DNA of 17,788 nt from Spirochaetia bacterium (GTDB taxonomy: Bacteria; Spirochaetota; Spirochaetia; Treponematales; Breznakiellaceae): assembly GCA_026002025.1 (NCBI GenBank), contig BOAU01000042.1:1-17788 (forward strand), written 5' to 3'. Position 1 is the first letter of the stretch. The number at the start of each line of letters is the position of its first letter. A model generated the notes under the pieces. It was not told the DNA's origin. It searched no databases and worked only from the letters and a program-made list of their open reading frames with translations. Of the stretch, positions 1 to 16,815 are shown piece after piece. The position numbers were made by a program, and so were the translations under genes.

Positions 1-859
1 ATACCGGGTGGTTTCTGTTAACCTTGGCTCGGCCACGGCGGACCTTTCCCGTTTGGCGGAAGAATTTGCGCGGTGGAAGGGTGTGGATCTTGTCGCCGCC
101 TATCATCACCCGGAATTGGGGCTTCTGGCGGCAAACCCCAAAAATTCAAGCCAGCTGGCCTGTTTCGGCCCTTTGCAAAAGCGGGAGCTTCTGGTGATCT
201 ATGCCGGCAAAGGTTCAGGAGCCGCCGATGAAAGCTGCCTCAGGGCGGCAAAACTTGCCGCCGCCCTGTTTGAGGGTGGAAAGGTATCGGGCCAACGGTC
301 CGCAGTCCCGGCGGAACTGCTGCGGGGAAATTTTACCGTAAAAAAATTGAAGAAAACCCTTGTCAAAACGGACACGAAGCCGGTAAAACCGCGAAAGGTA
401 AAGATTGCGGCGTCGGTAAAACCACGAAGGAACCTTTCCCGGATGGTCCGTGGACCGAAAAATGCCGCCGCCGTTGCTGTCAAAGAGGCGCCCAGGCCCG
501 CTGTTCCCACCATTGCCAAAGTTCCGGTGCGGATGACCCCCCGGTATTCGGTGATCGTTACCAACGAACTTTTTCATAATGGGAATGTGGAAGCCTGGAA
601 GCGGATTATCGCAAGCTATAAGGCCAAATACCCGGAATTACAGGTGTTCATCTATTACGAGGGAGAGCGGATTCTGGACATTAATTCCCTCTTTGTGTGG
701 GGGAAGGTTAAACACGGGGTTTCCATTCAGTTTGCCGTTGCGGGAAACGGTATCAGGGACGTGGCAAAATTGCAGCGCTACCTGGCCCAGGGGGCAAGCA
801 ATCAGTTTGAAGTATTCATCCGCAATGCGGCGGATACTGTTTTAAGGCTTTTCGGCTAG
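1..859 (+). CDS. Tandem degenerate HPr-like domain protein (5' end cut by window)
   Basis: The reading frame is open to the window edge, so the GTG at 8 is probably internal and the gene starts upstream. Numbering from that GTG, residues 1-91 and about 179-263 each follow the HPr pattern: a short strand, a loop, an amphipathic helix, strands, then a segment like the HPr N-A-K-S-I..L..L stretch, a G/K turn, I-x-F/I-x-A-G, and a closing helix. Neither copy keeps the canonical H-A-R-P phosphorylation loop. The first has G-S-A-T-A-D there; the second has F-H-N-G-N with a histidine (190) near the expected place. A Lys/Pro/Ala-rich basic linker (about 95-178) separates them. The next gene, 14 bp downstream, is PPDK-like, which fits a PEP phosphorelay partner. 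The HPr assignment comes from pattern comparison by eye; the protein could instead be an unrelated alpha/beta fold. Confidence 0.55.
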   Translation, partial: YRVVSVNLGSATADLSRLAEEFARWKGVDLVAAYHHPELGLLAANPKNSSQLACFGPLQKRELLVIYAGKGSGAADESCLRAAKLAAALFEGGKVSGQRSAVPAELLRGNFTVKKLKKTLVKTDTKPVKPRKVKIAASVKPRRNLSRMVRGPKNAAAVAVKEAPRPAVPTIAKVPVRMTPRYSVIVTNELFHNGNVEAWKRIIASYKAKYPELQVFIYYEGERILDINSLFVWGKVKHGVSIQFAVAGNGIRDVAKLQRYLAQGASNQFEVFIRNAADTVLRLFG

Positions 860-873
860 GTTAAGGACAAGAA

Positions 874-3501
874 ATGAATCGGCACATACATTTTTTCAGT
901 CAAAAAGACGGTATTTCCGGGAAGATTGACGCCGGGCTTTTAGGTGTCTGGGGGCGGGAACTCAATGATCTGGCGGAATTGGGATTTCCCATTCTGCCGG
1001 GCTTCATTCTGGATGCGGAAATTGCCTCTGGAATTGACGCCGAGGCTATTAAAAAGGATATAAAAGCTCTTTTGGACAGATGCGCCCTCATTGCGGGCAA
1101 AAAGTACGGGGATGCGGAGAATCCCCTGCTCCTCAAGGTGCTTGTTTCAGGGAACATGGCGGTGAGCGCCTATCCTGCGCTGCATAACTTCGGCCTGGTA
1201 CGGCCTACTATTGAAGGGTTTGCCAAATTGGCCGGTAAGGATTCCGCCGCCAGGGAGACGCTTTTTCTGATCCGGGGGATGCTCAAGGTTGAGGAGCGCA
1301 TCAGGGAAATGGAAGGGAAAACCAGGACGCGGGATGAGATAAGCGCCCATCTGAAAATTCTGGATCGGACTTTGGGCATTGCCCCGCCTTCCAATGAGTT
1401 GGGCGGAAGGGAAAAGCCCCTCAAAATTGACAAAAGCGCTGAAGCCTACATTGACGAGTATGCAAAATATTTTCCCGCCGGTTTTTTTGACAGCGCCGAA
1501 GATCAGCTTTTTATCGCCTTAAGCGAAATTTCCAAAATGCTCAGGCTGGAGCCTCTGACAGGGGAAAAGGATACGGCCCTGTTAATCCAGCCCATGGTAT
1601 ACAGCTATGGCAGGGATTCCTGTATCGGGACCTGTTTCAGCAGGAATGTATTTACGGGTGAGAAAAAGCTTCAGGGCGAATTCTGCCGGGGTTCATCCAA
1701 TGAAGCCGGAGCGCAGGGTATCGAAAAGATCAACGGCAAGCATCTCAAGGAACTGCAAAGGATCGCCTGGACACTGGAAGATCGATTCAGGGACATCCGG
1801 CAGCTGCGGTTTGCCGTGGAAAATGGGAAGCTTTGGCTGATTGAACAGGGTCCGGCGGGGCAGAAGTCCGTCAGGGCGGATATCAAATTGCTGCTGGATC
1901 TGGAAAAACGTAAAATTGTGGATAAGGTCTATGCGGTAAAGGCCGTTGAGCCCCGGCGGCTCAACGAAATCCTCCATCCCCTTATTGATACCCCCAGCGT
2001 CAAAGGGCTTAAATACCGGAAGGGCGGAATTGCCGGAGCTCCGGGGGCCGCTGTCGGCAGGGCTTACTTCAGTACCGACCGGCTCCTGAAGGCCCGCACC
2101 CTGGCCCGGCAGAAGGGGGAGGACGACCGGTTTATCCTGGTGCTGGAATCATCCTTTGCGGAGGATGTTAAGGCCATTGAAGTAAGCGCCGGGGTCCTCA
2201 CTTCGCAAGGGGGCTATGCCGCCCACGCTTCGGTGATTGCCCGCCAGTACGGCAAGGTGTCTCTGGTGGCTCCGGACCTCAAAATCAAGGGTAAAAAGGC
2301 CAATTTGGGAAATTTTACCTTTTCCGAAGGGGATTACCTCACTCTCGATGTGCCTTTTTACACTGAGCCTGTTGTGTATGCGGGGGCGGCAAAACTTATC
2401 GAACCGGACCCCACAGAATCGGGGCTGTTGGAATTTATTTCCCTGGTGTCGGACCTGCGCACTGAGCTTTTTGCCAGGACGGCCGAAAACGGCGCGGGCC
2501 GCAGGGCCGGAAGCCGCCGGTTTCAGGTCCGGGCAAACGCGGAAAGCCCTCGAGACGCGGCGCTGGCCCTGTCCTTTGGGGCCGAGGGGATCGGGCTCTG
2601 CCGCACGGAACACATGTTCTTTCAGGCGGAACGGCTCAAGGTATTCCAAAAGATGCTTCTTGGCAACGAAAAGGAGCGGAAACAGGCCCTGGCAAAGCTT
2701 TTGGTCATGCAGCGCTCTGATTTTTTCAGGCTTTTCAAGGTAATGGCGGGGAAGGACCTCTGCATCCGGCTGCTGGACGCCCCGCTCCACGAGTTTATCC
2801 CCGATGCTTTTCATGAGTCCAACCCCATGCTGGGCCGCCGGGGCTGCCGTATCGCCGTGTCCTTTCCCGAAATTTACGCCATGCAGGTGCAGGCTATCTT
2901 TGAAGCGGCCTATAAATTGCAAAAAGAAAAAATTGAAGTCCGCCTGGAAATCATGGTCCCCATGGTGATGAACGCCGCGGAATTAAGGCTCATCGCCTAC
3001 GGCAAGAACATTGAGGGGGCCGCCTATGCGGGGATCGCGGATATCGAGGAAGATCTGCGGCAGGGACAAAAGGCCCGGCCCCTGGACTACCACATCGGCG
3101 CCATGATCGAGCTTCCCGCCGCGGCTCTGGGAGCCGGAGAAATCGCCCGGTACGCCCGCTTTTTCAGTTTCGGCACCAACGATCTGACCCAAACTGCCCT
3201 GGGTATTTCACGGGATGATTTTACCGGTTTTATGGGCGACTACACCCGCTTCGATCTGATCCCCCGCAACCCCTTCAGCGTTTTGGACGGGCGTGTTAAG
3301 GAGCTGATTGCCCTGGCTGTGGAGCGGGGACGGCTTACCCGGCCGGATCTGATCTGCGGTCTCTGCGGCGAGCATGGGGCCAATGCCGAAAACCTGGAAT
3401 TCTGTATGGACGCCGGGCTTGACTATGTGTCCTGTTCGCCCTATGCCGTGCCTGTCGCACTGCTGGCCGCGGCACAGGCGGAAATTACGAGGGAAAAGTA
3501 A
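874..3501 (+). CDS. Pyruvate,phosphate dikinase-like PEP-utilising protein with eroded ATP domain
   Basis: The 875 residues match the usual length of bacterial PPDK. The C-terminal half is well conserved: the phosphohistidine motif Q-G-G-Y-A-A-H-A-S-V-I-A-R (His451), then the PEP/pyruvate barrel with R-A-N-A-E (about 553), G-I-G-L-C-R-T-E-H-M-F (about 572-582), L-L-D-A-P-L-H-E-F (633-641), N-P-M-L-G-R-R-G-C-R (650-659), Mg ligands E746 and D770, S-F-G-T-N-D-L-T-Q, and the catalytic-type Cys831 in G-L-C-G-E-H-G. The N-terminal ATP-grasp half is degenerate: G-G-K-G-A-N-L is replaced by G-V-W-G-R-E-L, the V-R-S-G-A arginine segment by L-K-V-L-V-S-G, and the Q-T-R-x-G-K-R-T end by E-Q-G-P-A-G-Q-K-S. 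It may therefore transfer phosphate from PEP without normal ATP/Pi chemistry, much as Enzyme I does. Start: ATG with AAGGA at 863-867. It probably forms an operon with the HPr-like gene. Confidence 0.85.
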   Translation: MNRHIHFFSQKDGISGKIDAGLLGVWGRELNDLAELGFPILPGFILDAEIASGIDAEAIKKDIKALLDRCALIAGKKYGDAENPLLLKVLVSGNMAVSAYPALHNFGLVRPTIEGFAKLAGKDSAARETLFLIRGMLKVEERIREMEGKTRTRDEISAHLKILDRTLGIAPPSNELGGREKPLKIDKSAEAYIDEYAKYFPAGFFDSAEDQLFIALSEISKMLRLEPLTGEKDTALLIQPMVYSYGRDSCIGTCFSRNVFTGEKKLQGEFCRGSSNEAGAQGIEKINGKHLKELQRIAWTLEDRFRDIRQLRFAVENGKLWLIEQGPAGQKSVRADIKLLLDLEKRKIVDKVYAVKAVEPRRLNEILHPLIDTPSVKGLKYRKGGIAGAPGAAVGRAYFSTDRLLKARTLARQKGEDDRFILVLESSFAEDVKAIEVSAGVLTSQGGYAAHASVIARQYGKVSLVAPDLKIKGKKANLGNFTFSEGDYLTLDVPFYTEPVVYAGAAKLIEPDPTESGLLEFISLVSDLRTELFARTAENGAGRRAGSRRFQVRANAESPRDAALALSFGAEGIGLCRTEHMFFQAERLKVFQKMLLGNEKERKQALAKLLVMQRSDFFRLFKVMAGKDLCIRLLDAPLHEFIPDAFHESNPMLGRRGCRIAVSFPEIYAMQVQAIFEAAYKLQKEKIEVRLEIMVPMVMNAAELRLIAYGKNIEGAAYAGIADIEEDLRQGQKARPLDYHIGAMIELPAAALGAGEIARYARFFSFGTNDLTQTALGISRDDFTGFMGDYTRFDLIPRNPFSVLDGRVKELIALAVERGRLTRPDLICGLCGEHGANAENLEFCMDAGLDYVSCSPYAVPVALLAAAQAEITREK

Positions 3502-3504
3502 GGA

Positions 3505-4065
3505 TTACGCGTATTGGTTCTTAAAGCCCATGGTCTTTTGGATGATGGTGGCGGCTTCTTTGGCAAATTTTTTTGCGTCCGCCTGGGGAATTGCCCCATC
3601 CTGATTAAAGCTCCGCTCGAAAAACAGGGCCATGGTGGCGTAGATATCCGGATGATTAAAGAATACAAAGGAGATATTGAAGCCCCGGGATTTTGTGACC
3701 GTAAAGGAAGTCAGGGATTCGATGGGCTCTTTGGCGATCAGGGCCTTAATCTGGTTTTTTGAGGTAAGTATTTCAAGCTCCTTGAACCGGAGGGGGATCT
3801 GTTCACCGGCAGGGCGAAGGTAGGGCTCGGTGCCCTTGTGCGGATAGGAAGCGGGTTCGATAAGGATGTACAGTTTTTTGCCCTGGGACTGGAATGTCAG
3901 CCCGTCTCCCTCGGTATATATGGCCTTTACCCCGGAATAGGAAATTATCTCATACCTCGTATAACCGGTATTTATATTGACAAAGGATGAAACGAGATAG
4001 GCCTGATCCTTCGGCAGCTTGTTCTGATTGTAGGCATCGAATAAATCCAGCGCTTTTATTGCCAT
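3505..4065 (-). CDS. Unrecognised 186-residue protein
   Basis: I do not recognise this family. The start is an ATG preceded by AGGGGG six bases upstream, and a TATAAT box lies about 27 bases before the ATG, so it looks expressed. The protein is soluble-looking, with no signal peptide and no membrane segment. The first half is strand-rich with an aromatic pattern (Y-L-V-S-S-F-V-N-I, K-K-L-Y-I-L-I-E-P). The C-terminal third ends in a probable helix (about residues 160-182) containing A-K-K-F-A-K-E-A-A-T-I-I. It is convergent with the PPDK-like gene, with three bases between the stop codons, and has its own promoter, so it is probably not cotranscribed with the lacI-type gene upstream of it. Base composition resembles the neighbours. 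Confidence 0.7.
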   Translation of the reverse strand: MAIKALDLFDAYNQNKLPKDQAYLVSSFVNINTGYTRYEIISYSGVKAIYTEGDGLTFQSQGKKLYILIEPASYPHKGTEPYLRPAGEQIPLRFKELEILTSKNQIKALIAKEPIESLTSFTVTKSRGFNISFVFFNHPDIYATMALFFERSFNQDGAIPQADAKKFAKEAATIIQKTMGFKNQYA

Positions 4066-4119: not shown

Positions 4120-4126
4120 CCGGTTT
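4110..4126 (-). terminator. Weak hairpin at the 3' end of the GH3-lacI operon
   Basis: A perfect 7-bp stem, AAACCGG / CCGGTTT with a 3-base loop, overlaps the stop codon of the LacI-type gene. On the minus strand only four T residues run through the end of the stem before TGAAAAATT, so termination would be weak. Confidence 0.4.
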
Positions 4127-5168
4127 ACTCGCGGTTAAGGGCGGCGATACTCTGCCGTTCCCTAAGGATACAGGGAAACAGCCGTTGGGTTAGTTCCGCA
4201 TACCGCCCGTCCAGTCTGGCGGTAAGCTGGGTAACAACCGCGTCCATCAGGGTGTGAATGTCCATCTCAAAGGTGGTAATCTGGGGCAGAAAAAATGCCG
4301 CTGCTCCTTCGGAAGAAACGATTGACACGATTGATACATCTTCGGGGATACGGAGCCCCCGTTTTTCCACACCCCTGATAAGCCCCGGCAGGGCCTTGTC
4401 ATTCATCACCACAAATGCGCTGGTGGCGCTGTGATCCACAAGAAATGCCTCCGTAACCGCGCAGGTTTGTATTGGATTGGAATCGCAGAAGAGCTCTGTC
4501 CCGTCCATGTCAAAGTTGCGGCACAAATAGGTAAAGGCCTCATGAACGCGCACCACCGGTCCGTAGCCGGAGCTATATGACTGTTTTGACTGGTTGATGA
4601 AAACCAGATGCCGGTGTCCCAGGCCCTTGAGATAGGAGATGCACTGCATCATGGTGGCAAAGAAGTCAATGTCGATAAAGGGCTCCACGGGAATTTCCGC
4701 ATCCCTGCCCATGAGGATGAAGGGAATGCCGAAGCGCTTGAGAATGCCGATGCGCCGGTCCGCGGTGTGTACCTCCATCAGGATTACCCCATCCACCAGC
4801 TCCTGCTGAATGAGCCGCAGGAGTTCCGCTTCCTCATCGGTTTGAAGGGTCCAGATGACCAGATGATAGCCCTGGCTGGTGGCGCTTCTGGCGGCCTGTA
4901 TAATGAGTTCCGTCTCGGAGATGCCGATACCGTGTTCCACCGGGGGAAAGAGAAGGGCGATGATATGGGTCCGCTTGCTGGCGAGGCTGCGGGCGATGGC
5001 ATTGGGCTGGTAGTGCAGCTTTTGCATCGCCTCGGTGATACACTGTTTTTTCTCAACGGAAATCGGCCGCCTGCCGCTGATGGCGTAGGAAACGGTGCTC
5101 ACCGAAACCCCCGCCAGTTCCGCCACATCCTTGATGGAGCTTTTTCTTTCCGCCTTTCCCCCGGCCAA
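4125..5168 (-). CDS. LacI-family transcriptional repressor of the adjacent glycosidase/transport genes
   Basis: The 347 residues match the LacI/GalR family. The N-terminal helix-turn-helix (about 11-30) reads S-I-K-D-V-A-E-L-A-G-V-S-V-S-T-V-S-Y-A-I-S-G, followed by the hinge helix with Y-Q-P-N-A-I-A-R-S-L (about 53-62) and a periplasmic-binding-protein-like sugar-sensing domain. The start is TTG: AAAGGA lies 8 bases upstream, the helix-turn-helix begins right after it, and the next in-frame ATG falls after the DNA-binding motif. The TTG lies 3 bases after the GH3 stop codon, so translation is probably coupled. LacI-type operators at the promoter of its own operon and at the divergent transporter promoter imply autoregulation and control of the transporter. 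The inducer is unknown; a sugar related to the GH3 substrate is likely. Confidence 0.92.
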   Translation of the reverse strand: MAGGKAERKSSIKDVAELAGVSVSTVSYAISGRRPISVEKKQCITEAMQKLHYQPNAIARSLASKRTHIIALLFPPVEHGIGISETELIIQAARSATSQGYHLVIWTLQTDEEAELLRLIQQELVDGVILMEVHTADRRIGILKRFGIPFILMGRDAEIPVEPFIDIDFFATMMQCISYLKGLGHRHLVFINQSKQSYSSGYGPVVRVHEAFTYLCRNFDMDGTELFCDSNPIQTCAVTEAFLVDHSATSAFVVMNDKALPGLIRGVEKRGLRIPEDVSIVSIVSSEGAAAFFLPQITTFEMDIHTLMDAVVTQLTARLDGRYAELTQRLFPCILRERQSIAALNRE

Positions 5169-5171
5169 TCG

Positions 5172-7619
5172 TCAGATCCTTTCCAGGGTTTGTTCCCCCC
5201 GGATATCCGCGGAACTGGCGCCGATCATAAAGGTATAGCCCTGGTGATCAAGCGCAAAGGCGTTGGCGCCTTCATCGTAGTAGGCAAGTTCGTCAAGAGG
5301 AACGGTAAAGGAAAGGCGCTTTTCCTCGCCGGCGCAGAGGTGTATCCGTTGGAAGGCGCAGAGCTGCCTGCAAGGCCGGGGCACATCGGTACGTTTCGAG
5401 GCGAAGTAAAGCTGGGGCACCTCGTCACCGTCAAGGGAACCGGTATTCTTTAGAGTCACCGATGCCTCAATGTTTTTCCCCTGTTGCGCAACGGAAAAGC
5501 CGCTATACGAAAAGGCCGTATAACTTAGGCCAAAGCCGAAGGGATGCAGAACCGGTTTATCATAATAGAGATAGGTAACCTTGTTTTTGATGATGTCGTA
5601 GTCGTTGATGTCGGGAAGATCCTGGCCGTCGGCGTACCATGTCTGGGAGAGCCGCCCCGCAGGGGAAAAGTCCCCGGCCAGGGCTTCGGCAAGGGCGGTT
5701 CCCACTTCCTGCATCCCATGGGCCGTGTACAGTACAGAGCGGGCGATCCCTTCCTGGGGACCCAGGGCATAGGGCAGGCCGGCAATAACCGTGAGGACCG
5801 TGTTCCGGTTCCTGTGGGACACCCCCTCAAGGAGGGCCGCCATGCGGGGCGGCAGATCAAGGGTCTCGCGGTCAATACATTCCCGCGCGCCGATGAGGGC
5901 ATGGTTCCCCACAACCACCACCGCCGCGTCCGCGCCCTTTGCCGCTTCAACGGCTTCCTCAAGGCCGTCTTTCAGGCGCACAATCGAGAGGTCCGCTAGG
6001 ACGGCGTTCACCTTTTCTACCGCCCCCGGCGCGTAGGGTTTGTTGTAGACACTGTTTCCCTGCCGCATGGCCACCCCAATAGCATTGGATGATTGCAGCG
6101 CCACGTCGGGCAGGAAGCGGTCGGGAATCTGGCCCGCCGGGCCCTCGCAGAAGAACAGTTCCCGCACAAACCAGCCCCATATGGCCCCTGATGTACAGAG
6201 AAGCCTGCCGTCACTATCGGTGGTAAGATATTTTTGGCTTTCAATGTGTAAAAAGCCGAAGCCGCCGTATCCCCAATCGGATACACGGAATACGGCGCGG
6301 TTTTCTTCGGTCCCATCAAGCACAGTAGAACCATCAGGCAAAACCCGCAGCCAGGCCTTGTTTTTTTTGCTCTGGAAGGCGCAGGTATCACAGCCGTCTG
6401 CATAGACCACTTCGCTTTGGGCAAAGGTTTTTTTGATGCCTGAAAGGGGCGTTACTTCGTAGGGAGGATTGCCGGAGTACCAGTCGCTCATGTTCTCATT
6501 GCCCAACTGCCCGATGACGGCGATTTTTTTTGTACCTTCCCGTTTCAGCGGCAGGAACCCGTCATTCTTCAATAAGACAACCGCTTCCCGCGCCGCCTGC
6601 CGGGCAAGGGCGCTGTTTTTTTCGGAACAGAGCGCGGCCCTGGTAATGGCGGCATAGGGGTTTTTGGAAGCATCCGCGTCAAACTGCCCCAGCCGGAACC
6701 GGACCCGCAGGGTGTAATAAATAGCGCGGTCAATATCAGCCTCGGTGATGAGCTTTTGTTCCAGGGCCTCTTGGGCCGCATTTTTTACCAGGTCCGCCTC
6801 ATCCAGAAACACATTCATCCCCGCCTTGATCGCCAGGGCAAGGGATTCCGCGTGGGTGGCGCAGTACTTATGTTCAGTCACCACCTGCTTGTAGGCGCCG
6901 CCGTCTGTCACGAAGTAACCCTCGCAGCCCCACTGTTCGCGGAGTACCGTATTCAGTTCAGGGTTGAGCATCCCCGGTATGCCGTTCACCTTGTTGTAGG
7001 CGGTCATCAGGGACAGGGCCTTGCCGTCCTTAAAGGCGTAGGAAAAAACCCGAAGGTAGTATTCCTGTTTGGTGCGTATTGTTAAAACGGAATTGGTGAA
7101 TGAGCGGTCCCTTTCAAAGTTATTGGCATAGAAATGTTTCGGCGATGCTATTGCCTGCACATAGAAGGGATCCTCTCCCTGTATACCCTGTATGAGGGAT
7201 GCGGCGAGTTTCCCCGCAAGGAAGGGATCTTCACCGTAGGCTTCCTCGTTGCGGCCCCAGCGGGGGTCCCGTTCCATATCAATGGTAGGGCAGAAGAGGC
7301 TCAAAAAGGAGCGGTGACCCACGGCATCGTAGAAGGCCCGGGCTTCCTCTCCGATTACGGCTCCCACTTCATGCAGCAGGGCGCGGTCCCAGGTACAGCT
7401 CAGGCCCAGGGGCTGGGGGAACACCGTGGCTTTTCCGCCCGCACGGTCCACCACCCCGTGGGCGCCTTCCGCGCCGGCGTGGTACTCCTCAATGCCCAGG
7501 CGCGGTATGGCCTCCTGGTGTGAGGGCAGAAAGCCGATTTTTTCCGCAAGGGTCAAGCGCCCGAGCAAATCCTGTACGCGGTTCTCCAGAGACGCCGCAC
7601 TGTCCTGAAACGCAATCAT
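5172..7619 (-). CDS. Glycoside hydrolase family 3 (beta-glucosidase/xylosidase-like), intracellular
   Basis: The layout is that of a long bacterial GH3 enzyme. Numbering from the ATG at 7619, the N-terminal barrel contains R-D-P-R-W-G-R-N-E-E-A-Y-G-E-D-P (117-132), K-H-F-Y-A-N-N (161-167) and the nucleophile region G-Y-F-V-T-D-G-G with Asp239. The second alpha/beta sandwich begins near A-R-E-A-V-V-L-L-K-N-D-G (about 343-354). It is interrupted by an insert (about 410-500) rich in aromatic and Gly residues, including F-R-V-S-D-W-G and W-G-W-F-V-R-E-L-F, which resembles a fascin-like beta-trefoil module. A fibronectin-III-like C-terminal domain follows (about 715-805). There is no signal peptide, so it acts in the cytoplasm on imported oligosaccharides. 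I prefer the ATG at 7619 because GGGGG lies 5 bases upstream; the ATG at 7631 (4 residues longer) has no ribosome-binding site. Exact sugar specificity cannot be read from sequence. Confidence 0.92.
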   Translation of the reverse strand: MIAFQDSAASLENRVQDLLGRLTLAEKIGFLPSHQEAIPRLGIEEYHAGAEGAHGVVDRAGGKATVFPQPLGLSCTWDRALLHEVGAVIGEEARAFYDAVGHRSFLSLFCPTIDMERDPRWGRNEEAYGEDPFLAGKLAASLIQGIQGEDPFYVQAIASPKHFYANNFERDRSFTNSVLTIRTKQEYYLRVFSYAFKDGKALSLMTAYNKVNGIPGMLNPELNTVLREQWGCEGYFVTDGGAYKQVVTEHKYCATHAESLALAIKAGMNVFLDEADLVKNAAQEALEQKLITEADIDRAIYYTLRVRFRLGQFDADASKNPYAAITRAALCSEKNSALARQAAREAVVLLKNDGFLPLKREGTKKIAVIGQLGNENMSDWYSGNPPYEVTPLSGIKKTFAQSEVVYADGCDTCAFQSKKNKAWLRVLPDGSTVLDGTEENRAVFRVSDWGYGGFGFLHIESQKYLTTDSDGRLLCTSGAIWGWFVRELFFCEGPAGQIPDRFLPDVALQSSNAIGVAMRQGNSVYNKPYAPGAVEKVNAVLADLSIVRLKDGLEEAVEAAKGADAAVVVVGNHALIGARECIDRETLDLPPRMAALLEGVSHRNRNTVLTVIAGLPYALGPQEGIARSVLYTAHGMQEVGTALAEALAGDFSPAGRLSQTWYADGQDLPDINDYDIIKNKVTYLYYDKPVLHPFGFGLSYTAFSYSGFSVAQQGKNIEASVTLKNTGSLDGDEVPQLYFASKRTDVPRPCRQLCAFQRIHLCAGEEKRLSFTVPLDELAYYDEGANAFALDHQGYTFMIGASSADIRGEQTLERI

Positions 7620-7640
7620 ATCCACCCCCATCGAAATATA

Positions 7641-7660
7641 TTATCGAAATGATTCGATAA
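7641..7660. promoter_or_regulatory. LacI-type operator at the GH3-lacI promoter
   Basis: TTATCGAAATGATTCGATAA is a 20-bp imperfect palindrome with half-sites ATCGAA/TTCGAT. It covers the predicted transcription start of the GH3 promoter, 3 bp from the -10 box. An additional ATCGAA half-site lies at 7630-7635. Its 16-bp core differs at one base from the site at 8003-8018. Confidence 0.75.
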
Positions 7661-7663
7661 CAC

Positions 7664-7693
7664 ATCATACAGTTACCGGCAAGAATCTGTCAA
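7664..7693 (-). promoter_or_regulatory. Sigma70 promoter of the GH3-lacI operon
   Basis: On the minus strand a perfect TTGACA (7688-7693) is followed after 18 bp by TATGAT (7664-7669). The predicted transcription start, near 7657, falls inside the operator. Confidence 0.7.
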
Positions 7694-7728
7694 ATAAAAA
7701 ACGAATCATGTTGAAAAACACTTTTTTT

Positions 7729-7962
7729 GCATTTTTTTCCACGACAAACGCATGAAAAAAATTATTCACGAATTTTCACTGATTAAGATAGGATTCTTTA
7801 GGATTTAAACCACGAACGACACAAACCCCACGAAAAAGCACAAAATTGCACAAAAATGTTCGTGTCTTTCGCGTGGTTCGTGGTTAAATTCTTAAATTTA
7901 TCCGTTTTTTGGGGATCAGATGGTTAAGAAATTCTTTCATGCGTTTGTCGTGCATTTTTTTC
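7729..7962. mobile_element. MITE-like inverted-repeat element between the divergent promoters
   Basis: A perfect 17-bp terminal inverted repeat (ACGACAAACGCATGAAA at 7741-7757; its complement at 7935-7951) bounds about 212 bp with no coding capacity. An 11-bp direct repeat, GCATTTTTTTC, flanks it at 7729-7739 and 7952-7962 and looks like a target-site duplication. Inside are further inverted arms (AACCACGAAC at 7808-7817 and its complement at 7876-7885) and a short direct repeat GCACAAAA (7838, 7848) near the centre. The whole could fold into a long imperfect hairpin. The gap between the GH3 and transporter genes otherwise holds only promoters and operators. The T-rich flanks weaken the target-duplication reading. 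Confidence 0.5.
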
Positions 7963-7992
7963 TTGACAGTGTTTAAAAAAGGGGGTTATCAT
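7963..7992 (+). promoter_or_regulatory. Sigma70 promoter of the sugar ABC transporter operon
   Basis: A perfect TTGACA (7963-7968), an 18-bp spacer and TATCAT (7987-7992). The transcription start should be near 7999, just before the operator. The -35 box directly abuts the right flank of the inverted-repeat element. Confidence 0.65.
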
Positions 7993-8002
7993 AAATCATT
8001 CA

Positions 8003-8018
8003 ATCGAAACGATTCGAT
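8003..8018. promoter_or_regulatory. LacI-type operator at the transporter promoter
   Basis: ATCGAAACGATTCGAT, an imperfect palindrome with a central CG typical of LacI-family operators. It lies just downstream of the predicted transcription start and upstream of the ribosome-binding site AAAGGAGG (8021-8028). It matches the core of the GH3-side operator at 15 of 16 positions in the same orientation on the plus strand. Confidence 0.75.
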
Positions 8019-8033
8019 GAAAAGGAGGCCTTC

Positions 8034-8966
8034 ATGGTATCGGTTCACCGGCCTTTATTGAAACGCCATATACAGCGCATAATTGATCAGCGGTATCTTT
8101 TGCTGCTCTCACTGCCCTTTGTTATCTGGCTGATCATCTTCAGGTACATCCCCCTGGTGGGGTGGACCATGGCTTTTCAGGATTATAAGCCCCAATTCAG
8201 CTTTTTTTCCCAAACCTGGGTGGGGTTCAAGCACTTTGCCGCGCTTTTTAAGGCGCCCATGTTCTATCAGGCCCTGCAAAATACCCTGGGGATGAGTATT
8301 TTGGGGCTGGTATTCGGTTTTACCACATCCATTACCTTTGCGGTGCTGATGAATGAACTGCGGGTTCTGCACTTTAAGCGTTTTACCCAGACCGTTTCCT
8401 ACCTGCCCCATTTTGTCTCCTGGGTGATCGTGGCGAATATTGTCACCACCATCCTTTCCCCTACGGGGCCGATCAATGAACTCCTGGTCCAACTGGGCAT
8501 ACTCAAGGAGCCCTTTAACTTTATGATCCAGAAGAACCTGTTCTGGTGGATCGTGGTCATTTCGGACATCTGGAAGGAGACCGGCTGGAACGCCATCATC
8601 TATCTGGCTGCAATAACCGGCATTGATGCGGCCATTTACGAGGCTGCGGAGATTGACGGGGTAAACCGTATGCAAAAAATATGGTACATCACCCTGCCGG
8701 GCATCAAATCCACCATCGTCATTCTGCTGATCATGAGCGTCGGGAACATGATCAACATCGGCTTTGAAAAACAGATGCTTCTGGGCAACAGCGTGGTAGG
8801 CACCAAGTCCCTGGTTTTGGACAAATACGCCCTGGACTACGGCATCGGCCTGTTCCGCTATTCCTATGGGACCGCCATCGGCATCTTTAAGTCGGTGGTG
8901 AGTATCATTCTGCTGATTGCCGCGAATACCGTAGCCAAACGGGTCGGCGATGAACGGCTTATATAG
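8034..8966 (+). CDS. Carbohydrate ABC transporter permease, LplB-like
   Basis: Inner-membrane permease of the CUT1 carbohydrate importer class, 310 residues. It shows hydrophobic segments at about 21-45, 85-107, 122-141, 170-192, 225-245 and 283-300. The EAA loop that contacts the ATPase is at about 203-223 (E-A-A-E-I-D-G-V-N ... I-T-L-P-G). The N-terminal pattern (Y-L-L-L-L-S-L-P-F-V then F-R-Y-I-P-L-V-G-W-T-M-A-F-Q-D-Y-K-P) is characteristic of LplB/YteP-type permeases for complex oligosaccharides. Start: ATG with AAAGGAGG five bases upstream. It is first in a three-gene operon and would pair with the next permease; no ATPase is encoded nearby. Its expression is probably controlled by the operator at 8003. 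Confidence 0.93.
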   Translation: MVSVHRPLLKRHIQRIIDQRYLLLLSLPFVIWLIIFRYIPLVGWTMAFQDYKPQFSFFSQTWVGFKHFAALFKAPMFYQALQNTLGMSILGLVFGFTTSITFAVLMNELRVLHFKRFTQTVSYLPHFVSWVIVANIVTTILSPTGPINELLVQLGILKEPFNFMIQKNLFWWIVVISDIWKETGWNAIIYLAAITGIDAAIYEAAEIDGVNRMQKIWYITLPGIKSTIVILLIMSVGNMINIGFEKQMLLGNSVVGTKSLVLDKYALDYGIGLFRYSYGTAIGIFKSVVSIILLIAANTVAKRVGDERLI

Positions 8967-8975
8967 GAGCGCAAA

Positions 8976-9872
8976 ATGACCATAAAACAATCGAAGGCCG
9001 CCAATACCGCCGCTGACGCTGTCATCGTCCTGATAATGTGCTTCATCATCGTGATAACCCTCTATCCCTTCCTGAACGTGGTGGCAAAATCCTTTAACGA
9101 CCCCATTGATACGGTAAAAGGCGGTATTCATATCTGGCCCCGCTCCCCCACGCTGGATAACTACGCCGACCTCTTTTCTGCGGGGAGCAATTTGCCCGCG
9201 GCCTTCCGTATGTCCGTACTCCGTACCGTGGTGGGCACCATCACCGGGGTCCTCTGCTGTTCAATGTTCGCCTTTAGCCTGTCCCGGCGGGACTTCATGT
9301 TCCGGAAGGCCTTTACCACCCTGCTGGTTGTCACCATGTATGTGGGGGGCGGCATGATCCCGGAATACATGCTGATCCGTAACCTGGGCCTTATCAACAA
9401 CTTCTGGGTCTATATTATCCCCGGCCTGGTGAGCGCCTTTAACGTGATTATCATCAGGACATTCATCGAAGGTATACCGATTTCACTGCAGGAATCGGCG
9501 AAGATCGACGGCGCCAACGATATCCACATCTTTTTTACGATTATTCTGCCCCTCTGTATGCCGGTGCTGGCAACGGTGGCGCTCTTTGTCGCGGTGGGCC
9601 AGTGGAACAGTTGGTTCGACACCTACCTCTACGCCCGGGCGAATAAATTTTTGTCTACCCTGCAATTTGAGTTGATGAAGGTGCTGGACAGCGCCCAGAA
9701 CGTCAGTTCCAGCGCCGATGTCTATTCCGAAGGCCTGCGCAATGCCAAGCGCAACCCCGAGGCCCTCAAGATGGCAATTACGGTGGTTGCCACCGTACCG
9801 ATTTTGGCGGTGTATCCCTTCCTGCAGCGTTACTTTGTATCGGGGATGACCATCGGATCGGTAAAAGAGTAG
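8976..9872 (+). CDS. Carbohydrate ABC transporter permease, LplC/YtcP-like
   Basis: Second CUT1 permease, 298 residues, starting 9 bases after the stop of the first one; AGGAG overlaps that stop codon, so translation is probably coupled. Membrane segments are visible at about 13-35, 82-102, 111-130, 141-161, 185-209 and 267-285. The EAA-type loop is at about 173-193 (E-S-A-K-I-D-G-A-N-D ... I-I-L-P-L). The extracytoplasmic part contains I-W-P-R-S-P-T-L-D-N-Y, common in LplC/YtcP relatives. With the LplB-like protein it should form the heterodimeric channel that accepts substrate from the lipoprotein encoded next. Confidence 0.93.
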   Translation: MTIKQSKAANTAADAVIVLIMCFIIVITLYPFLNVVAKSFNDPIDTVKGGIHIWPRSPTLDNYADLFSAGSNLPAAFRMSVLRTVVGTITGVLCCSMFAFSLSRRDFMFRKAFTTLLVVTMYVGGGMIPEYMLIRNLGLINNFWVYIIPGLVSAFNVIIIRTFIEGIPISLQESAKIDGANDIHIFFTIILPLCMPVLATVALFVAVGQWNSWFDTYLYARANKFLSTLQFELMKVLDSAQNVSSSADVYSEGLRNAKRNPEALKMAITVVATVPILAVYPFLQRYFVSGMTIGSVKE

Positions 9873-9879
9873 TTCCTTT

Positions 9880-9896
9880 AGGGAGCGTTGCTCCCT
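9880..9896 (+). other. Intercistronic hairpin between permease and binding-protein genes
   Basis: AGGGAGC-GTT-GCTCCCT forms a perfect 7-bp stem 7 bases after the permease stop codon. No T-run follows, so it is more likely an mRNA-stabilising or processing structure than a terminator. Confidence 0.5.
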
Positions 9897-9924
9897 GGAG
9901 ATATAGTTTAAGAAGGAGTATTTA

Positions 9925-11589
9925 ATGAAGAAGCTGACAAAACAAATGCTGCCGGCGGCAGCGGTACTGCTCTGCGTAATGGCCCTTGCCTCATGCGGCG
10001 GGAAGAAGACCAATGCCGTAAAGGCAACCACGGCGGGGACGAAGACCCCAATCACCTTTACGTTCTTTAACGCGGACGCGACAGAGGATATGCCCTTTAC
10101 CGATCCGGTGGCGCAGAAGATCACCGAACTTACCGGTGTAACCCTGGAAGTTGACCGCGCGGTGGGGGGTGATACCCAGGCGATTCCGCTGATGATCGCC
10201 TCAGGGGAGTATCCCGACATCATTTACGCCAAAGGGGACCTGACCATGCTGATCGAATCCGGGGCGATTATTCCGCTGGATGATTTAATCGAAAAATATG
10301 GTAAAAACATGAAGGAACTCTACGGCGACCAACTGGTGCGCCTCCGGAACTCCCAGGCTGATCCTCAGATTTACCATGCGGGGACCTACGGCGTAAAGAC
10401 CGCGCTCTGGTCAACCGAAGGGCCGCTGCAGATTCAGCACGCCGTGTTGAAGGAACAGGGCTATCCCCGGATGCGTACCCTTGATGATTATGAGAAGGCG
10501 CTGAAAACATATCTGGCCAGGCATCCGACAATCAACGGGCAAAAGACCCTGGGCCTCTCCCTGCTGATCGATACCTGGCAGTGGTATATCGACTTGTCCA
10601 ATCCGGCGAACTACCTTATCGGGTACCCGGATGACGGTCAGTGGATTATCAATCAGGATACCCTGGAAGCGACCTACAAATTCCTGTATCCGGGCATGGA
10701 TGCCTATTATAAGTGGCTGAACCGCATGAACGCCGAAGGTATTCTGGACCCTGAATCCTTTACCCAGAAAGAGGATGTATGGAAGGCCAAAATTGCATCG
10801 GGCCGGGTACTCGGTATCGGCTATCCCCTCTGGGGTTATGGTGATGCCCGGACATCCCTTATCAAAGACGGAATGCCGGAGCGTACCTACGCTTATCCGC
10901 CTTTGACCATAAATGAAAACTATAGCTCCGCCATGCTTAAGGACTTCGGCTTTGGCGGCGGCTGGGGTATTGCCATCACCTCGACCTGCAAGGACCCTGA
11001 ACGGGCCTTTGAGTTCATTGACTGGATGTGCTCTGAACAGGCCCAGACCCTGACCAACTGGGGCCTTGAAGGGATCAATTATGATGTCATTAACGGTAAG
11101 CGGGTACAGAAGGCCAGCGACCGGGTACAGCAGGATACCGACCCCGACTACGGCAAAAAGACCGGTGTCGGCCGCTGGGCCTATCCCTTCCCCCAGCGTG
11201 GGGATGGCTATATTGATTCAACGGGCAACTACAATACCAAAAACAGCCCCGAAAATATCGTGGCGAATTATCTGCCGGTTGAAAAGGAAACCCTTGCCGC
11301 CTACGGCGCTACCATGTGGATAGACCTGTACCCGACCACCGAATCCCTTGGGGTATCCCGGCACGGGCAGGCATGGCAATATACCCTGCCGCCGGATGTG
11401 AACGCCAAGATCACCGAGGCCGATGAACTGGTAAAAGGCGCCCTTGCCAACATGATACTCGGCCCGCCTTCCGCCTTTGACGCCGCCTGGCAAAAAATGC
11501 TTTCCGACCTCCGCTCCATCGGTATTGAGGATGCGAACAAGGCGCTGACCGCGCTGGTGAAAGAAAAAATTACCATGTGGAACAATTAA
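9925..11589 (+). CDS. Extracellular sugar-binding lipoprotein, LplA-like
   Basis: Solute-binding protein of the carbohydrate importer, 554 residues, in the size range of LplA/YtcQ-type proteins, which are longer than typical sugar-binding proteins. The N-terminus is a lipoprotein signal: a positively charged start, a hydrophobic stretch and the lipobox L-A-S-C with Cys24 as the lipidated residue, then a Lys/Thr-rich linker (about 25-41). The mature part opens with I-T-F-T-F-F-N-A-D and contains I-A-S-G-E-Y-P-D-I-I-Y-A-K-G-D, the usual signature near the first lobe. It would capture the sugar outside the inner membrane and deliver it to the two permeases. Start: ATG with AAGGAG at 9913-9918. 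Being last in the operon, after a hairpin, is less common than being first. The ligand is unknown. Confidence 0.93.
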   Translation: MKKLTKQMLPAAAVLLCVMALASCGGKKTNAVKATTAGTKTPITFTFFNADATEDMPFTDPVAQKITELTGVTLEVDRAVGGDTQAIPLMIASGEYPDIIYAKGDLTMLIESGAIIPLDDLIEKYGKNMKELYGDQLVRLRNSQADPQIYHAGTYGVKTALWSTEGPLQIQHAVLKEQGYPRMRTLDDYEKALKTYLARHPTINGQKTLGLSLLIDTWQWYIDLSNPANYLIGYPDDGQWIINQDTLEATYKFLYPGMDAYYKWLNRMNAEGILDPESFTQKEDVWKAKIASGRVLGIGYPLWGYGDARTSLIKDGMPERTYAYPPLTINENYSSAMLKDFGFGGGWGIAITSTCKDPERAFEFIDWMCSEQAQTLTNWGLEGINYDVINGKRVQKASDRVQQDTDPDYGKKTGVGRWAYPFPQRGDGYIDSTGNYNTKNSPENIVANYLPVEKETLAAYGATMWIDLYPTTESLGVSRHGQAWQYTLPPDVNAKITEADELVKGALANMILGPPSAFDAAWQKMLSDLRSIGIEDANKALTALVKEKITMWNN

Positions 11590-15242: not shown

Positions 15243-16274
15243 ATGTCCCCCATCCCGGTCCTGATCCTCTTTGGCCCTACGGCGTCGGGGAAAACTGAGA
15301 TCCTTAAGCGTCTATTTGACGCACAGTTTTTTTCCGCCGGCGCTCCCTTCAAGGCGGAGATCGTTTCCGCCGATTCCATGCAGGTCTACCGGGGGATGGA
15401 TATCGGCACCGCCAAGCCTTCCCCGGCGGAACGGGCCCGAATTTCCCATCATCTTATTGATATCCGCAACCCCGATGAACAGTTCCATGCCGGGGATTTT
15501 GTCCGCCTGGCGGACCTTTGTTGCGCCGAAATCGCCGGCCGGGGCGCGCTGCCCGTGATTTCCGGGGGCACGGGCTTTTACCTCAAGAATTTTATTCTGG
15601 GCCTCCCCGCCGCGCCCCCTTCGGACGCCGGGATACGGGACGCCTTAAAAGAGGAATTGCAAAGCCGGGGCGCCTCCGCCCTGATGGAAGAACTGGCCCG
15701 CTGCGACCCGGTGAGCGCCCACAGAATCCACATTAACGATGAATACCGCATCCTGCGGGCTCTGGAAGTGTTCCGGCTTTCCGGGAAGCCCCTCAGCTCA
15801 TACTCCGTGTCAGGGGGCGCAGGCGGCGCCCCGGAAGGCGAGTCTGTAGAAGGCCTTGCCGCCGAAGGCGGCCCTTCACGAAAAGGGCGCTATCGGTTCC
15901 TCATCATCGGCCTTGAATGGGAACGGGGGGAACTCTATAGCCGGATTAATCTGCGCAGCGCGGAAATGTTCCGGGCAGGACTTCCAACCGAGGTACAGCG
16001 GCTGCGGGAACAGGGTTATAGCCCGGATGATCCGGGGCTTAAGGCCATCGGTTACAGGGAATTTTTCATCGAAGATACGCCGGGGCACTACCGTTTTGCG
16101 GAGGATCCGGCGGGGATGGAAACCCTGGTTGCCCAAAACAGCCGCCATTACGCCAAGCGGCAGATCACTTTTTTTGCATCCATACCGGAAGTTAAGTGGG
16201 TGGTTATGGGAGACCATGGCGGCGACAATCCGGTCAGCCGAATTCGCCGGGAGTTGGAGGAGTTTTTAAAGTGA
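15243..16274 (+). CDS. miaA: tRNA dimethylallyltransferase
   Basis: Transfers a dimethylallyl group to A37 of tRNAs reading U-starting codons. At 343 residues it is slightly longer than typical MiaA. Motifs: P-loop G-P-T-A-S-G-K-T (11-18), S-A-D-S-M-Q-V-Y-R-G-M-D-I-G-T-A-K-P (42-59), H-H-L-I-D-I (69-74), V-I-S-G-G-T-G-F-Y-L (105-114), the D-E-Y-R-I-L-R-A-L-E-V segment (166-176), and R-H-Y-A-K-R-Q (301-307) near the C-terminus. Residues 190-214 are a Gly/Glu/Ala/Ser-rich insert before the strand R-Y-R-F-L-I-I-G-L-E. I chose the ATG at 15243 because the P-loop follows it directly; a longer frame opening at 15144 would overlap the omega gene with low-quality sequence. No strong ribosome-binding site is seen, so coupling to the omega gene is likely. 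Its last 9 bases overlap the 3' end of the antitoxin gene tail to tail. Confidence 0.95.
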   Translation: MSPIPVLILFGPTASGKTEILKRLFDAQFFSAGAPFKAEIVSADSMQVYRGMDIGTAKPSPAERARISHHLIDIRNPDEQFHAGDFVRLADLCCAEIAGRGALPVISGGTGFYLKNFILGLPAAPPSDAGIRDALKEELQSRGASALMEELARCDPVSAHRIHINDEYRILRALEVFRLSGKPLSSYSVSGGAGGAPEGESVEGLAAEGGPSRKGRYRFLIIGLEWERGELYSRINLRSAEMFRAGLPTEVQRLREQGYSPDDPGLKAIGYREFFIEDTPGHYRFAEDPAGMETLVAQNSRHYAKRQITFFASIPEVKWVVMGDHGGDNPVSRIRRELEEFLK

Positions 16275-16553
16275 GTGGAGCATTGCCTCCCGCAAGATAG
16301 CGTTCATCCGGGTTTGATAGCCCTTTCCGGTCTTTTTCAGCCATGCCACCACATCCGCGTCCAGCTTGCAGTTAACCGGAACCTTGACCGGTCGATATAA
16401 ATCCCGGTCTTTCCAAAGATGAAAACCTGAAAAATCTGTTATTTCAGGCATATCCGAACAATCGATGTCTTCATCCTTAATACTGTCCAGCCGTTCCCAA
16501 TCTTCCTTAGTGGGTTTTGGAACGGTTTCCAAAGTATAAGTTACCATTGCCAT
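16266..16553 (-). CDS. brnA: BrnA antitoxin, ribbon-helix-helix DNA-binding
   Basis: Antitoxin and autorepressor of a type II toxin-antitoxin pair, 95 residues. It carries the BrnA signature: D-E-D-I-D-C-S-D-M-P-E-I-T-D-F-S-G (mid-protein), Y-R-P-V-K-V-P-V, then L-D-A-D-V-V-A-W-L-K-K-T-G-K-G-Y-Q-T-R-M-N-A-I-L-R, the DNA-binding ribbon-helix-helix region at the C-terminus. I chose the ATG at 16553 because AAGGAGG lies 6 bases upstream; an upstream ATG at 16658 lies inside the toxin gene and would add 35 unrelated residues. The ATG two codons later (16547) is an alternative. The gene overlaps the end of the toxin gene by 47 bp and miaA by 9 bp. Confidence 0.93.
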   Translation of the reverse strand: MAMVTYTLETVPKPTKEDWERLDSIKDEDIDCSDMPEITDFSGFHLWKDRDLYRPVKVPVNCKLDADVVAWLKKTGKGYQTRMNAILREAMLHSL

Positions 16554-16815
16554 AATAATCCTCCTTTTCCCATTTTTTTGCAGGCCTGGCCGAAATAATC
16601 CTTGTGGTGTCCGGGGCTGTTTCTGTTGCGGCCACATACAGAATACGGCCATCCGCATTACCGATGAGGATATGCCGGTCCTCGTTTACGCTATGCCTGG
16701 TATCATACTGGTCCCAAAGCATTTCATCATTAAAAACAAGGACCGCCTGTTCAAAGCTAACCTTATGCTTTTTGATATTGGCCTTGTTTTTCCGCTTATC
16801 CCAGGTGAATTTCAT
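16507..16815 (-). CDS. brnT: BrnT toxin, RelE-like ribonuclease fold
   Basis: Toxin of the BrnT/BrnA pair; family members inhibit translation by RNA cleavage. The 102 residues begin F-T-W-D-K-R-K-N-K-A-N-I-K-K-H-K-V-S-F-E-Q-A-V, the N-terminal BrnT motif, followed by I-L-I-G-N-A-D-G-R-I-L-Y-V and T-R-I-I-S-A-R-P-A-K-K-W-E, the C-terminal strand and catalytic-type Arg/Lys segment. The last ~15 residues (Y-Y-G-N-G-N-L-Y-F-G-N-R) are read through the antitoxin ribosome-binding site and start and look like a tail added by the overlap. Start: ATG with AGGGGG five bases upstream. Toxin first, antitoxin second is the usual BrnTA order. Confidence 0.93.
   Translation of the reverse strand: MKFTWDKRKNKANIKKHKVSFEQAVLVFNDEMLWDQYDTRHSVNEDRHILIGNADGRILYVAATETAPDTTRIISARPAKKWEKEDYYGNGNLYFGNRSKTH

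Follow-up and report, generated by a model that had tools for sequence, protein, structure and literature searches.

The locus

The window examined here, the whole 17,788-nucleotide stretch of contig BOAU01000042.1 (assembly GCA_026002025.1), opens with two tandem genes. The first encodes a protein with two domains of predicted HPr-like fold; the product of the second is paralogous to pyruvate, phosphate dikinase (PPDK), an enzyme that uses phosphoenolpyruvate (PEP). The nearest relatives are contigs named Spirochaetia bacterium, on which both proteins are 80-93% identical to those of the window, and the source is, as judged from its sequence, a treponeme-like spirochaete. The upstream open reading frame ends at 859 and the PPDK-like frame starts at 874, leaving a gap of 14 bp; the coordinates and the gap given in a preliminary description of this DNA, which had been made from the letters alone, are correct. 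The parts of the PPDK-like gene are as follows.

874..3501, forward strand: PPDK-like paralogue, 875 amino acids; relatives carry the annotation 'pyruvate, phosphate dikinase'
874..1893, forward strand: degenerate nucleotide (ATP-grasp-like) domain, residues 1-340; mean identity of the paralogues to canonical PPDK 23.0%, against 49.8% for the PEP domain
949..951, forward strand: Trp26 at the place of PPDK Lys22; of the 30 paralogues, all 29 others have Arg
1141..1143, forward strand: Leu90 at the place of PPDK Arg92; Val in 28 of 30 paralogues, Leu in 2 (window included)
1843..1851, forward strand: Glu324-Gln325-Gly326 at the place of PPDK Gln335-Thr-Arg337
2026..2373, forward strand: phosphohistidine domain, residues 385-500; PF00391, 33.4 bits, above cut-off
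2224..2226, forward strand: His451, phosphohistidine position; H in 30 of 30 paralogues
2506..3489, forward strand: PEP-binding barrel, residues 545-872; PF02896, 215.4 bits, above cut-off
2788..2829, forward strand: HEF...NPM loop, after the PEP arginine; 8 residues in the window and 2 close relatives
3364..3366, forward strand: Cys831, catalytic cysteine position; C in 30 of 30 paralogues

Residues kept and lost in the dikinase paralogue

The top matches of the protein in the Protein Data Bank (PDB) are PPDKs (Clostridium symbiosum, 1GGO/1KBL), and the Pfam domain PPDK_N leaves a trace at residues 283-327 only (16.4 bits, below the cut-off of 27). The NCBIfam equivalog profile for PPDK, TIGR01828, gives 570.6 bits for the window protein and 609-675 bits for five relatives, all below the cut-off of 843.45, as against 1300-1341 bits for three canonical copies. 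Nor does the protein reach the Enzyme I profile TIGR01417, with 97.8 bits and a cut-off of 341.7.

The pattern of losses was defined in an alignment of 30 paralogues with five canonical spirochaete PPDKs, in which sites were numbered via the PDB-match alignment and the aligned PPDK residues are taken by us to have their ATP-site, PEP/Mg and catalytic roles. His451, Arg577, Arg632, Glu746, Asn769, Asp770 and Cys831 (window numbering) are present in all 30 paralogues, as the preliminary description had claimed for the phosphohistidine, the PEP and Mg residues and Cys831 of the window protein. Its further claim, that three segments of the nucleotide domain are lost, holds as well: GGKG is replaced by GVWG, VRSGA by VLVSG and QTRxGKR by EQGPAGQK, and the Lys22, Arg92, Glu323 and Gln335 positions are substituted in 30/30 paralogues, whereas they are intact in 5/5 canonical PPDKs. 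The Glu323 place holds Arg (26 paralogues), Gly (2) or Lys (2), and the Gln335 place Glu (23), Asp (6) or Asn (1). Loss of the nucleotide site is, on this alignment, a lineage-wide pattern and not chance, since it sets every aligned paralogue apart from every canonical PPDK. Retention of the PEP half-reaction is, by the same token of residues, probable. Among the paralogues themselves mean identity is 48.2% in the nucleotide-like domain and 67.7% in the PEP domain. The HEF...NPM loop, so short in the window, runs to 32 residues in the 5 PPDKs and to 37-40 in the remaining 28 paralogues. In 3 Enzymes I it measures 11 residues, the search pattern having missed the other seven.

In a maximum-likelihood tree of 46 rows, a branch supported at 98/100 sets 31 paralogues apart from the other rows; it joins them to canonical PPDK, with the 10 Enzymes I far off, and the grouping of the 5 canonical PPDKs as one clade is left unsettled by the tree. 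Because the 31 share one side of a supported branch, the paralogue looks like the product of one old conversion rather than of repeated decay. A decayed pseudogene was rejected as an explanation, given the PEP and His residues kept in 30/30 and the one old group in the tree. Nine genomes were compared for other PEP enzymes: the paralogue and a genuine HPr occur in 9/9, a canonical-PPDK-type frame in 8/9 (all but G006) and Enzyme-I-size frames in 7 (all but G002 and G006). Since these frames co-occur with it, the paralogue is not simply a replacement for PPDK or Enzyme I, and a stand-in for an absent phosphotransferase system (PTS) was ruled out by the HPr genes and the Enzyme-I-size frames. 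G006 has two PPDK-like paralogue frames (L020, L028) on separate contigs; a canonical PPDK or Enzyme I frame was not found there.

One genome (G256, a contig of 4,059,867 bases) carries what may be a natural deletion. Its paralogue has 586 amino acids and starts in the linker, so that the phosphohistidine and PEP domains are kept and the nucleotide domain is gone; if the first start codon is used, the short gene overlaps the HPr-like gene by 4 bp. The short form is not a mere choice of start codon, because the HPr-like gene occupies the place of the nucleotide domain, and it may be a misassembly. In the tree it forms a long branch beside the Breznakiella and Treponema sp. paralogues; elsewhere in the genome there is another frame, of PPDK size, that matches PPDK_N. 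No other single observation hints as strongly as this short form that the pair functions without a nucleotide domain.

The PPDK-like protein is to be weighed against its annotation, under which, as has been stated for TP0746 of Treponema pallidum, it would be an active PPDK whose nucleotide site is unusual. That view can draw on the full-length PPDK architecture of 30/31 tree rows, on the Arg retained by many paralogues at the Arg337 column and on the formation of ATP from PEP, AMP and diphosphate by TP0746, called most likely in PMC10013896. It has to contend, however, with substitutions at four nucleotide-site positions in every aligned paralogue, with TIGR01828 scores far under those of canonical copies, with the absence of the nucleotide domain in G256 and with the separate canonical-type PPDK frame in 8 of nine genomes. 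A working dikinase is accordingly rated as highly improbable, and the protein, as far as its residues tell, is very probably not a dikinase.

The case bears directly on T. pallidum. One genome of the set (G086) is taken as T. pallidum because its gene positions and protein lengths agree with TP0746 and TP0748: the paralogue lies at 810737-813367 and CfpA at 814710-816533, and two sources place TP0746 variants at nucleotides 810772 and 811414 (PMC10013896) and give 901 amino acids for TP0746 and 678 for TP0748 CfpA (PMC3373638). PPDK_N has no match in this genome and is present in 9 other genomes of the same scan; of its only two PEP-barrel matches, one is the paralogue and the other is a frame that falls with Enzyme I in the tree. 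Since the genome has the paralogue only, the annotated Ppdk of T. pallidum is unlikely to be a dikinase. So read, the sequence speaks against the ATP-forming reaction proposed for TP0746 and weakens an inference of pyruvate and PEP metabolism for which PMC8525777 took the TP0746 transcript as the basis. If this is true, pyruvate phosphate dikinase drops out of the energy metabolism of T. pallidum as it is drawn in those two sources.

The HPr-like partner

The gene ahead of the PPDK-like paralogue is cut by the edge of the window.

2..859, forward strand: HPr-like partner, N-terminus cut off at the window edge; homologues carry Pfam accession PF27497
2..283, forward strand: first HPr-fold domain; Breznakiella residues 71-164 correspond to window residues 1-94
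533..802, forward strand: second HPr-fold domain, residues 5-94 of the model of window 521-856
575..577, forward strand: His192 codon in the NELFHNGNVEAWK motif, candidate phosphorylation site; H in 43/43 rows of alignment A1

Homologues have 267-377 amino acids (best 120 of 2872), and that of Breznakiella has 70 residues ahead of the first residue in the window. The preliminary description saw two HPr-like domains here and named a non-HPr fold as an outcome that would count against it. The predicted fold came out HPr-like for both domains, with Crh chains among the structural matches. Sequence profiles, on the other hand, do not bear the claim out: PF00381 is not among the 15 Pfam families listed for 43 scanned HPr-like members (E up to 10), no Pfam or NCBIfam profile matched the partner above its cut-off, and hhalign comparisons of the two domains with 9 spirochaete HPr sequences and with each other gave no significant score. 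In the open-licence literature no paper carrying the accession PF27497 was found.

The histidine that the preliminary description called H190 does exist, although its number is H192 when counted from base 2. Its equivalent is present in 120/120 homologues, which are close relatives, being the best-scoring of 2872; judged from the ranges of the structural matches, it is placed within about a residue of HPr His15. These counts use A1 and the 120 homologues; in a further alignment, A3, invariance of the histidine is uninformative because rows were selected by a motif pattern that contains it. The first HPr-fold domain has no conserved histidine at the His15 place.

Linkage to the filament gene

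In relatives, the gene ahead of the pair encodes 658-698 amino acids, and the Breznakiella copy scores 1215 bits with NF040882, the profile of the cytoplasmic filament protein CfpA. For the window itself the position of cfpA would fall to the left of base 1, and this neighbour is known from relatives only. The order cfpA - HPr-like - PPDK-like was found in 9/11 relative loci, the other two beginning at contig edges, and in 19/20 further loci hand-picked by the analyst, where the exception (L107) is a canonical PPDK. Among these loci, one HPr-like gene is split in two frames (L105) and one pair overlaps owing to the chosen start codon (L093).

Of 394 Spirochaetia genomes, 155 gave a match for CfpA, 155 one for the HPr-like protein and 152 both; the paralogue, at 770 bits or more, was found in 148 and all three genes in 143. 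The 770-bit cut was set by eye, the top listed canonical-type copy having 753.5 bits; whole paralogues score above 1200 bits and cut fragments reach down to 770.1, and no more than two candidates were scored in any genome. In 136/136 genomes with both genes on one contig, the HPr-like gene immediately precedes the paralogue on the same strand, a count that leaves out 12 of the 148 (HPr-like gene on other contigs in 5, not listed in 7). Conservation of the pair in relatives, whose failure the preliminary description had named as a second outcome against it, is thereby upheld. In 121/123 genomes with both on one contig, cfpA lies upstream of the paralogue, on the same strand and within 2 kb; here 25 of the 148 are left out (cfpA on other contigs in 15, not listed in 10), and the distance count, made without the cfpA strand and with one copy per genome, again gave 121/123 when repeated with strands and all listed copies. 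In the two exceptions (G389 and G256) cfpA is elsewhere and the HPr-like and PPDK-like genes are still together. A chance neighbourhood was ruled out by the co-occurrence in 152 genomes and by the unbroken adjacency.

Nine genomes in which cfpA and the HPr-like gene are present and no paralogue was scored were rejected as true exceptions, all being assembly cuts: in six the paralogue runs into a contig end (G024, G049, G220, G223, G299 and G311), in G184 a run of N lies within it, in G209 the contig ends within the HPr-like gene, and in G217 the cfpA contig stops about 100 bp past cfpA. Eight further genomes have only one or two of the three genes (G128, G132, G141, G193, G199, G211, G249 and G357), several of the matches lying at contig ends.

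A few copies depart from the three-gene order. In G334 the PPDK-like gene is seemingly split (L112, frames of 652 and 250 amino acids), possibly a broken copy or a sequencing error, and cfpA and the HPr-like gene are retained. Second cfpA copies stand without HPr-like or PPDK-like partners, in the stretch examined, in G359, G150, G134 and G044 (L115, L116, L117 and L119, respectively). At two further loci an HPr-like protein is encoded with no PPDK-like gene present in the stretch examined: L114 lies beside TPR/DUF2341 genes and L118, at a contig end, beside a CBM9/GH26 gene. Neither neighbourhood hints at a function.

Published work on Treponema denticola concerns what appears to be the same locus, TDE0842-0844 being equated with cfpA - HPr-like - PPDK-like by gene order and names. 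PMC3931704 lists 16 major proteins of the envelope fraction, of which band 1 is TDE0844 'pyruvate phosphate dikinase' and band 3 is TDE0842 CfpA, and attributes the presence of CfpA there to anchoring at the inner membrane. A soluble glycolytic enzyme is not expected among such proteins. TDE0842, 0843 and 0844 were repressed in the same co-incubations (PMC3914990), and a cfpA mutant lacked filaments and showed chromosome condensation and filamentation (PMC3398590). A function linked to the filament is likely for the pair; if that is right, the two proteins are candidates for the components that bridge and anchor the filaments of treponemes. A role in these filaments for PEP, or for either of the two neighbours, was not met with in the searches made of the open-licence literature.

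A possible relay and its alternatives

We propose tentatively, with a confidence a little short of even, that the pair forms a PEP-driven, Enzyme-I-like relay serving CfpA filaments, in which phosphotransfer is predicted. A PPDK duplicate in the spirochaete lineage would have lost the ATP/Pi half-reaction but not the one with PEP. His451 would be phosphorylated by PEP with release of pyruvate, a step that is reversible in Enzyme I and PPDK and would be so here; the swivelling His domain would pass the phosphate to His192 in the second HPr-like domain of the neighbour, an assignment for which the case seems evenly balanced; and the HPr-like protein, phosphorylated or bare and bound to the PPDK-like protein, would control the CfpA filament, its assembly, bridging or membrane anchoring being set by the PEP/pyruvate state.

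The first part of this proposal, conversion of a PPDK paralogue into an Enzyme-I-like donor for an HPr-like partner, goes back to the preliminary description and has fared unevenly. It is favoured by the lost nucleotide site, the predicted HPr fold, the invariant histidine, the constant pairing and the G256 deletion. Several points weigh against it. The partner has HNGNV where HPr has HARPA, so that Arg17 beside the histidine is missing; the N-terminal HPr-docking domain of Enzyme I (PEP-utilisers N, which we take to be PF05524) is absent from the three Pfam families that match the PPDK-like protein (E up to 10); and Arg is retained at the Arg337 column in 18/30 paralogues (Gly in the window), where full loss of the nucleotide site would have it gone. 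With Arg17 and the docking domain missing, docking and catalysis, if the relay exists, therefore differ from those of the PTS.

The same two absences speak for a different reading, in which both proteins are structural components that bridge or anchor the CfpA ribbon, the PPDK-like protein being a filament-bound pseudoenzyme for which PEP is at most an allosteric ligand and from which no phosphate passes to the partner. This, the main rival, is possible though rather unlikely. The cfpA linkage and the cofractionation with CfpA in the envelope suit it too. The title of a tomography paper of 2004 speaks, for these filaments, of 'novel bridging and anchoring components'. Yet the catalytic Cys, the phosphohistidine and the PEP and Mg residues are fully conserved in 30 members and the PEP domain is more conserved than the nucleotide-like domain, which exceeds the needs of a scaffold.

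Alternatively, the PPDK-like protein may phosphorylate some other acceptor (CfpA, genuine HPr or canonical PPDK), with the HPr-like protein as an adaptor. Genuine HPr and the usual neighbour cfpA would be at hand for this, and because the first HPr-like domain has no conserved histidine, HPr folds here can serve without phosphorylation. Few stretches of the partner, however, are as conserved as the histidine motif, and the pair stays joined where cfpA is not next to it (G256, G389), so that another acceptor is unlikely.

To return to the proposed relay, a free-standing sensor of the PEP/pyruvate ratio, as the preliminary description had it, is too general a role, because the cfpA linkage and the published fractionation point to the cytoplasmic filament. 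Since the pair usually sits directly behind the filament gene, it may let the level of fuel act on the cell skeleton. In its widest form, which we consider doubtful, the proposal is of a second, non-sugar PEP phosphorelay derived from a dikinase, with the state of an intermediate-filament-like cytoskeleton as its output: the PEP/pyruvate level would be recorded, in the form of phosphohistidine, on a filament partner that is HPr-like, and fuel supply would be coupled to the assembly of filaments, the compaction of the chromosome and cell division. If so, a bacterial cytoskeleton receives a metabolic signal via a PEP relay.

Other genes of the window

A 186-amino-acid protein without a Pfam or NCBIfam match is encoded convergently to the PPDK-like gene (3505-4065, reverse strand), with relatives in 7/10 compared loci. 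It is followed at 4125-11589 by genes for a LacI-type regulator, a GH3 glycosidase and an ABC transporter; in L002, L006 and L010, TPR and Pta genes stand directly after the convergent neighbour, and in the window the genes of 4125-11589 lie in between. The toxin BrnT (PF04365, 83.8 bits) and the antitoxin BrnA (PF14384, 58.9 bits) are encoded as a pair at 16269-16815 on the reverse strand.

Comparison with known systems

The paralogue resembles PPDK (TIGR01828; Clostridium symbiosum 1GGO/1KBL) in domain order, length, phosphohistidine, PEP/Mg residues and Cys831, and differs from it in the replaced nucleotide-site residues, the score below the family cut-off and the linkage to cfpA and an HPr-like gene. 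With the Enzyme I/HPr couple of the PTS the pair shares a PEP barrel and phosphohistidine domain beside a predicted HPr fold with a histidine near the active-site place, and the 586-residue form of G256 has the size of Enzyme I; unlike Enzyme I (TIGR01417), the paralogue groups with PPDK and the N-terminal docking domain was not found in it, and unlike HPr (PF00381), the partner has two HPr-like domains, an altered active-site loop and no HPr profile match.

Regulatory PTS chains such as the nitrogen PTS (PtsP-NPr) use a PEP relay for regulation and not for sugar uptake, but their donor family, partner architecture and genomic setting all differ from those seen here. Crh, an HPr paralogue, has the HPr fold without the phosphohistidine, as does the first HPr-like domain of the partner, which unlike Crh adds a second domain with a histidine and varies at the Ser46 place (S/T/A). 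CfpA (NF040882), in turn, is the filament itself, and its gene is the upstream neighbour of the pair in nearly every genome in which the linkage could be read.

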